64,000 bases of DNA from an uncultured Candidatus Entotheonella sp. (lineage in GTDB: Bacteria > Tectomicrobia > Entotheonellia > Entotheonellales > Entotheonellaceae). Made by a program: the position numbers and the translations under genes. Positions 11,408 through 23,277 of this stretch are shown piece after piece (the first letter of the stretch is position 1; each line of letters begins with the position of its first letter). The stretch is from positions 1,351,300 through 1,415,299 of the forward strand of contig OX639990.1 in NCBI GenBank assembly GCA_951828535.1, in the 5' to 3' direction. The notes below the pieces were generated by a model. It did not search any database and had not been told where the DNA came from. It saw only the letters and a program-made list of their open reading frames with translations.

Positions 11408-11845
<438 letters not shown>

Positions 11846-11975
11846 TCCTGAACTATAACCCGCCTTTATGTTTCCTCGCGCATTGGCCCATCGCCGAGTT
11901 TCTTTCATACCTCCCCAACGCACCGTCAGAATGGCGCATAAGACCCATGATTTCAGAGGTGTCGAAATTTACCCC

Positions 11976-21891: not shown

Positions 21892-23277
21892 ATGTCTATG
21901 TTATGTAAAGCGCGCCACATTCATTTCGTTGGCATCGGCGGTATGGGCATGAGTGCCATCGCCACCGTCCTGCTTCAACTCGGCTACACCATCAGCGGAT
22001 CAGACATAGCCCTGTCCGATGTAACACGTGAGCTGCAGGATGGGGGCGCCACGGTGTTCCAGGGCCATGCGGCGTCTCATATCTCGGGATGCGACATTGT
22101 GGTGGTTTCCTCTGCCATATCGGCGGACAACGTCGAAGTGACCGCGGCGCACGCGCAAGATACGCTGGTCATTCCGCGGGCGGCGATGCTGGCGGAACTG
22201 ATGCGCGGCAGACAGGGCATTGCCGTTGCCGGCACCCATGGAAAAACAACAACGGCATCTTTGATCGCAACGGTTCTGGAGTCTGGAGGTCTGGACCCTA
22301 CCGTGCTGATCGGGGCGCGACTGAATAGCCTGGGGAGCAACGGGAAGCTCGGTCAGGGCGATTACGTGGTTGCCGAGGCTGATGAAAGTGACGGGTCATT
22401 CCTTCTGTTACCGCCGGTTATGAATGTCATTACAACCCTGGACCTGGAGCACCCTGATCATTACGAAAATCTTGAAGATATAAGCCAATACTTCAAGAAA
22501 TTTATGAATAACGTCTCTTACCATGGATTAAATATAATATGCAATGATAACGAAAATTTAAGAAGAATAGTTAATGATTACGAAATGAAGGCTCCTGTGA
22601 TGACCTACGGGCTGAATAATTCTGCTGACTACTCGGCCCAAAACATATACAATGCAGGGCTGCAAACGTTTTTTGAGGTTGTCAGGAAAGACTCGTCATT
22701 AGGCCGCTTCATCCTTAACCTTCCAGGACGTCATAATGTCTCTAACGCTTTGGCAGCGATAACAGTAGGTTGCGAGTTAGGGCTGTCTAAATCGGCTATT
22801 TCAAGTGCACTCGAAAGTTTTGGCGGCGTGCAGCGGCGTTTTGAAACGCGCGGCGAATGCCATGGCGTAACGGTCGTCGATGACTACGGTCATCATCCCG
22901 AGGAAATCCGCCACACACTCAGGACTGCCAAAACGGTGTGGCCGCACAGACGTCTCGTCGTGGTATTTCAACCGCACCGATACACTCGAACGCACCTGCT
23001 ACAGCGGGAATTCAGCATGGCATTCAGCGAGGCCGATGCGCTCATCATGTTGGACATCTATGGCGCCGGTGAAGAACCTATTCCGGGTGTCACGACCGGC
23101 GTCTTATACAAAGGCGTCACCGCACACGGACAAAAGGACGTGTATTACCTCAACGATGCCTCTCAGGTGGTGCCATTTCTGAATGGTTACGCGCGAAAGC
23201 ACGACGTGCTTTTGACCCTCGGCGCGGGCGACGTATGGAAAGTTGCCGAGGAATTCCTGCGGACGGGAAAGGCATAG
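21892..23277 (+). CDS. murC: UDP-MurNAc-L-alanine ligase MurC, with AT-rich internal patch
   Basis: A 461-residue Mur ligase that adds L-Ala to UDP-MurNAc. The N-terminal nucleotide fold (HFVGIGGMGMSAIA), the ATP loop GTHGKTTTASLI, EADESDGSF, LPGRHNVSNALAA and VVDDYGHHPEEI are intact, so the enzyme should work. The stretch from about 22450 to 22820 (about 120 codons of the central domain) is strikingly AT-rich. By hand count 22501-22620 has 37 G/C in 120 bases, with ATA, AGA and TTA codons nearly absent elsewhere in the cluster. The flanks return to normal composition without a frameshift. This fits homologous replacement from a low-GC donor, but that is inference. Confidence 0.96.
   Translation: MSMLCKARHIHFVGIGGMGMSAIATVLLQLGYTISGSDIALSDVTRELQDGGATVFQGHAASHISGCDIVVVSSAISADNVEVTAAHAQDTLVIPRAAMLAELMRGRQGIAVAGTHGKTTTASLIATVLESGGLDPTVLIGARLNSLGSNGKLGQGDYVVAEADESDGSFLLLPPVMNVITTLDLEHPDHYENLEDISQYFKKFMNNVSYHGLNIICNDNENLRRIVNDYEMKAPVMTYGLNNSADYSAQNIYNAGLQTFFEVVRKDSSLGRFILNLPGRHNVSNALAAITVGCELGLSKSAISSALESFGGVQRRFETRGECHGVTVVDDYGHHPEEIRHTLRTAKTVWPHRRLVVVFQPHRYTRTHLLQREFSMAFSEADALIMLDIYGAGEEPIPGVTTGVLYKGVTAHGQKDVYYLNDASQVVPFLNGYARKHDVLLTLGAGDVWKVAEEFLRTGKA

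Follow-up and report, generated by a model that had tools for sequence, protein, structure and literature searches.

A short AT-rich, divergent patch within murC of two Candidatus Entotheonella species, possibly left by an old fragment replacement

We found that murC of an uncultured Candidatus Entotheonella sp., the gene for UDP-N-acetylmuramate--L-alanine ligase in the dcw cluster, contains a short, bounded AT-rich patch, that the patch occurs in two Entotheonella species, and that the phylogenetic signal of the family is lost in this part of the gene only. Between the two species the patch also shows raised synonymous change at an unchanged dN/dS ratio. The explanation that we favor, with somewhat better than even confidence, is that a low-GC, divergent piece of murC replaced this short stretch long ago, ahead of the split of the two species, and has since been partly ameliorated. 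All positions given below refer to the window, i.e., the entire stretch of 64,000 nucleotides that was analyzed. The gene and the core of the patch are the following.

21892-23277, + strand: murC, UDP-N-acetylmuramate--L-alanine ligase, 461 amino acids, dcw cluster; assigned by its open frame, TIGR01082, and the predicted fold
22457-22589, + strand: core of the AT-rich patch, delimited by maximum-likelihood change points; GC 0.248 inside and 0.560 outside

Judged by its motifs and a structural model, the gene most likely encodes a functional MurC. The frame of 461 codons (21892-23277) is uninterrupted, and the whole protein scores 520 bits with the MurC equivalog profile TIGR01082, against a curated cutoff of 335. 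The P-loop GTHGKTTT, EADESD, the metal-binding His, and the C-terminal motifs are present, and the residues that are invariant in the MurC alignment are kept (G114, H116-T119, E162-D167, H187, D330-Y332, and H334-P336); His187 corresponds to the residue that is known in MurC to bind the metal ion. The AlphaFold model has a pLDDT of 93 overall and of 90-96 over the patch, and this predicted structure matches H. influenzae MurC (1p31/1p3d) with a TM-score of 0.96. The patch corresponds in the model to helices 194-205 and 221-229 and the surrounding strands, and the three-domain fold is predicted to be intact despite it. The protein thus resembles known MurCs (TIGR01082; solved structures 1p31 and 2f00): the ligase is full-length, no catalytic motif is missing, and the predicted fold agrees. 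It differs from other MurCs in its residues 187-260, which hold two extra residues and belong to the most divergent in the set (profile rank 123 of 124). The statement in a preliminary description of this DNA that the frame and the Mur ligase motifs are intact was borne out. Upstream of the cell-wall cluster, the window also carries a bacterial class A RNase P RNA (11408-11848, + strand; Rfam RF00010, 317 bits).

The patch stands out in base composition. The genes neighboring murC have a GC content of 0.56-0.68; positions 22500-22619 hold 37 G/C in 120 bases (GC 0.308), the same count as in the preliminary description. Over 147 nt, the GC content inside murC is 0.279 versus 0.566 in the flanks, a drop of 0.287 (about 6 SD) that is the deepest among 518 long ORFs in 844 kb, made up of the window and 39 spaced stretches of the same genome (mean, 0.068; SD, 0.036; runner-up, 0.183). 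The murC of the sister species likewise ranks first, with a drop of 0.309, among 250 ORFs in 420 kb of this nearest relative. A two-break maximum-likelihood scan resulted in lnL gains of 24.2 (own) and 25.6 (sister), whereas the highest gains in 60 codon shuffles of each gene were 11.0 and 9.3, respectively. These values confirm that the patch is a real feature and not due to chance, and that the composition changes abruptly and within bounds, as had been proposed. The left edge is sharp and falls on the identical base in both species; the right edge is softer and differs, the change points in the sister being equivalent to 22457-22689. Positions 22690-22820 are only mildly AT-rich and not divergent. 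The extent of about 370 bases (22450-22820) proposed earlier was too wide: the AT-rich divergent part spans some 130-230 bp, from 22457 to 22589 or at most to 22689, and lies in residues 187-260.

Codon choice contributes substantially to this dip. In codons 197-245, the third-position GC content is 0.39 versus 0.65 in the flanks (own) and 0.22 versus 0.63 (sister). The sister patch has a GC content of 0.259, and 0.444 would be expected from its residues under genomic codon use; about half of the dip is due to amino acid composition and about half to codon choice. Over residues 197-245, the dips are -0.264 and -0.301 in Entotheonella versus a mean of -0.044 (SD, 0.040; lowest, -0.162) in 128 other MurC genes, among which no comparable dip was found. 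With a synonymous-only score, the own murC was outside the top 12, where gene starts or repeats make up most entries.

The same comparisons yielded several further observations. (i) A seeming second case of a dip at the patch site, murC of genome G044 (L017), was rejected: it has a run of N there. (ii) The start of the AT-rich runner-up ORF in the own genome (L147) is probably extended wrongly. (iii) In the sister sample, a DNA methylase gene (PF01555; L196:12757-14298) ranks second in depth of its internal GC drop (0.395 at about codon 228 versus 0.616 in the flanks), which possibly represents a swapped target-recognition region. (iv) Three transposase-like ORFs with an rve integrase core (L143:7903-9126, L145:17527-18750, and L206:14585-15808) have equal length and identical composition statistics at distant genome sites and are apparently copies of one insertion element.

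The closest match to the own MurC in public genomes is that of the sister, Candidatus Entotheonella sp. (L031 in genome G001), with 92% protein identity. Two family-level relatives, L032 (genome G003) and L033 (genome G002, Candidatus Tectomicrobia KatS3mg131), both have about 60% MurC identity. The murC of L033 is in two frames, residues 5-79 and 78-460, with a break at about codon 78 that is probably a frameshift in the draft genome. Comparison with these proteins defines the following features.

22450-22464, + strand: H-P-D-H-Y motif at the left edge of the patch; His187 is retained and Pro188 is found in both Entotheonella
22450-22671, + strand: residues 187-260, the divergent segment; L032/L033 match it at 32-33% identity and the flanks at 66-72%
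22576-22581, + strand: two additional codons, residues 229-230, in both Entotheonella and absent from all other aligned MurCs
22672-22815, + strand: residues 261-308, within the span described earlier but native; 50-60% identity to the family and placed there by the tree

In residues 187-260, L032 and L033 share 69% identity, and MurC pairs with a similar flank identity (65-70%) have a mean of 49% (SD, 7). The identity of residues 261-308 to the family (50-60%) is as expected at that evolutionary distance. Residue 188, Pro in both Entotheonella, is L, M, I, or V in all 124 other aligned MurCs. On a profile for residues 187-260 from which Entotheonella had been left out, the own and sister segments score 75 and 82 bits, which is 3.2 and 2.4 SD under the flank-based expectation; L032 and L033 are above theirs, and 23 low-GC MurCs average 102 bits. 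In the own copy, the PFYG motif is without its near-invariant P-F-Y, and the loss of motif residues has gone further than in the sister (P209S and Y211H). Given the low scores and this loss, the patch is not simply an ordinary low-GC MurC fragment. Regression of patch similarity on the GC content of the other MurCs gave coefficients of -6.6 (SE, 3.5; own) and -0.6 (SE, 3.5; sister), i.e., no firm correlation with low GC.

Segment by segment, we then tried each of the 144 branches of a fixed flank tree as the attachment point of the two Entotheonella. The N-terminal segment, the C-terminal segment, and the 48 residues 261-308 each grouped Entotheonella with L032/L033 at rank 1. For residues 187-260, the native stem came 30th of 144 and was 5.5 lnL units worse, scattered single rows being preferred. 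The same columns placed L033 with L032 at rank 1; this segment can thus hold the family signal. In AU tests on residues 187-260, the native stem had a p value of 0.25, and direct sister placements to L032 and L033 had p values of 0.011 and 0.050, respectively. In a tree of residues 187-308, the family clade had an AU p value of 0.354, and the native position is thus not rejected. The tree evidence consists of a family signal lost in the patch and not of a positive foreign placement. Analysis by segment, as the preliminary description had recommended, showed native N- and C-terminal parts and a loss confined to residues 187-260. It had also reasoned that a patch shared by relatives, with an agreeing tree, would speak against transfer; the sister does share the patch, and residues 187-260 place the native stem 30th without rejecting it. 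A search of about 630 genomes for a donor gave best patch identities of 38-47% and none higher, phage records remained below 35% identity, and a scan of viral contigs also returned no donor.

The patch DNA of the sister differs from the own at 27 of 147 bases (about 16-18%), the two species being about 10% apart in DNA. With 23 other genes of the region, own versus sister, as background, the patch dS is 0.66-0.80 versus a median of 0.30, and only 0.3% of windows are as high. The patch dN is also raised (7-11% of windows reach its value), and dN/dS is about 0.15 both in the patch and outside. Relaxed protein constraint would raise dN/dS, and a lowered dS would be expected if a DNA or RNA element were conserved here; an unchanged dN/dS with a raised dS is as expected of ameliorating DNA rather than of relaxed constraint. 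By a rough estimate, AT-rich DNA moving to a GC-rich composition would raise dS about 1.5- to 1.7-fold. Since the synonymous excess seen is 2- to 3-fold, amelioration alone may leave part of it unexplained.

From these data we infer the replacement itself, a donor, and the amelioration. Before the split of the two sampled Entotheonella species, about 130-230 bp of murC, directly 3' of the conserved metal-binding His motif, would have been exchanged through homologous recombination for divergent, AT-rich murC DNA that was two codons longer. The enzyme fold would have been retained under continuing purifying selection, and the foreign stretch would then have shifted to the host composition in both species, faster than its surroundings. 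The event is neither recent nor strain-specific, since it predates the split of species about 10% apart. Of the original proposal, in which a low-GC homologue replaced the central segment, the bounded change and the lost family signal stand; the affected part is not the whole central domain. As for recombination with a low-GC homologue, no donor or sister lineage came to light in about 630 genomes, AU tests do not reject the native position (p values of 0.25 and 0.35), and the patch scores lower as a MurC than ordinary low-GC MurCs do.

The main alternative, which we hold possible with a good deal less confidence, is change in situ, in which a local burst of AT-biased mutation was tolerated where the central domain is least constrained, from the Entotheonella stem onward and without foreign DNA. 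This would fit the empty donor search in about 630 genomes, the native placement that AU tests do not reject, the motif loss that is further along in the own copy (P209S and Y211H), the synonymous sites still evolving fast between the sisters, and the variability of the segment across MurC (mean of 49% at flanks of 65-70%). However, dN/dS is no different between patch and flanks, so that protein constraint is not relaxed, and relaxation would not push third-position GC to 0.22-0.39 across about 150 bp; moreover, both species have a sharp left edge at one and the same base, and the patch is unique among the 518 and 250 ORFs. We know of no bacterial mutator confined to about 150 bp. A mutational hot spot of about that size within the gene, in place of transfer, would have to be a lasting AT-biased, accelerated regime that persisted through a speciation and raised dN and dS at an unchanged dN/dS, which we consider improbable.

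It is very unlikely that selection keeps the tract AT-rich for a DNA or RNA element within murC, such as an internal promoter for murB-ftsQAZ, a regulatory RNA, or an antisense gene. The tract does lie upstream of cell division genes, but its synonymous sites evolve faster, not slower, than elsewhere; the single weak promoter match (9/12, at 22625) is outside the patch core and compares with 1.8 matches in shuffles; the RNA folding z-score is -0.12; and Rfam has no match at the patch. Gene conversion from the Mur ligase paralogue mpl of the same genome (L112; TIGR01081, 444 bits), the only full-length close paralogue found, is scarcely credible: the paralogue matches the own patch at 29% and the sister patch at 36% identity, no excess over the 32% and 29% expected from L032/L033. 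Although both genomes come from uncultured bacteria, an assembly chimera or sequencing artifact, for which a check had been advised, has a negligible probability, since in the separately assembled sister the frame is also open and the patch begins at the same base, in DNA that differs at 27 of 147 bases, so that the two are separate records.

The patch can be compared with two known systems. (i) The preliminary description considered gene-internal transfer unusual, which was too strong: Chan et al. 2009 (cited in PMC3212841) reported recombination break points inside genes for 19.6% of 1462 sets of prokaryotic orthologues. As in the within-gene lateral transfer of Chan, Beiko, Ragan, and colleagues, outlined in PMC3212841, part of a conserved, otherwise vertical gene would have a history of its own in murC; there, conflicting trees support the break points, whereas in murC the signal is lost without another home and the case is mainly one of composition and divergence. 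(ii) In Streptococcus pneumoniae, the mosaic genes for penicillin-binding proteins and the mosaic murM are likewise cell-wall genes with divergent blocks acquired via homologous recombination, and some pbp2b blocks are also without a known donor (PMC5487634). The pneumococcal mosaics occur at the population level, are associated with drug resistance, and stem from close relatives (PMC5487634), whereas the murC patch is fixed in two species, old, AT-rich, and without a known selective reason.

Among the features of mosaic genes, abrupt composition boundaries (lnL gain of 24-26 versus at most 11 in shuffles) and fixed presence in a related genome (L031 of G001) were found, and a donor lineage was not found in about 630 genomes (best identity, 38-47%). 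On the favored reading, the patch is a new, somewhat extreme instance of well-documented gene mosaicism. Entotheonella are sponge symbionts rich in natural products, and little is known of DNA exchange in this lineage. If the patch arose by local drift, its very local scale needs a new explanation. If it arose by transfer, whole-gene murC trees of the Entotheonella group mix histories, and even part of the central domain in an essential ligase of peptidoglycan synthesis can be exchanged for very divergent DNA that stays fixed across species.
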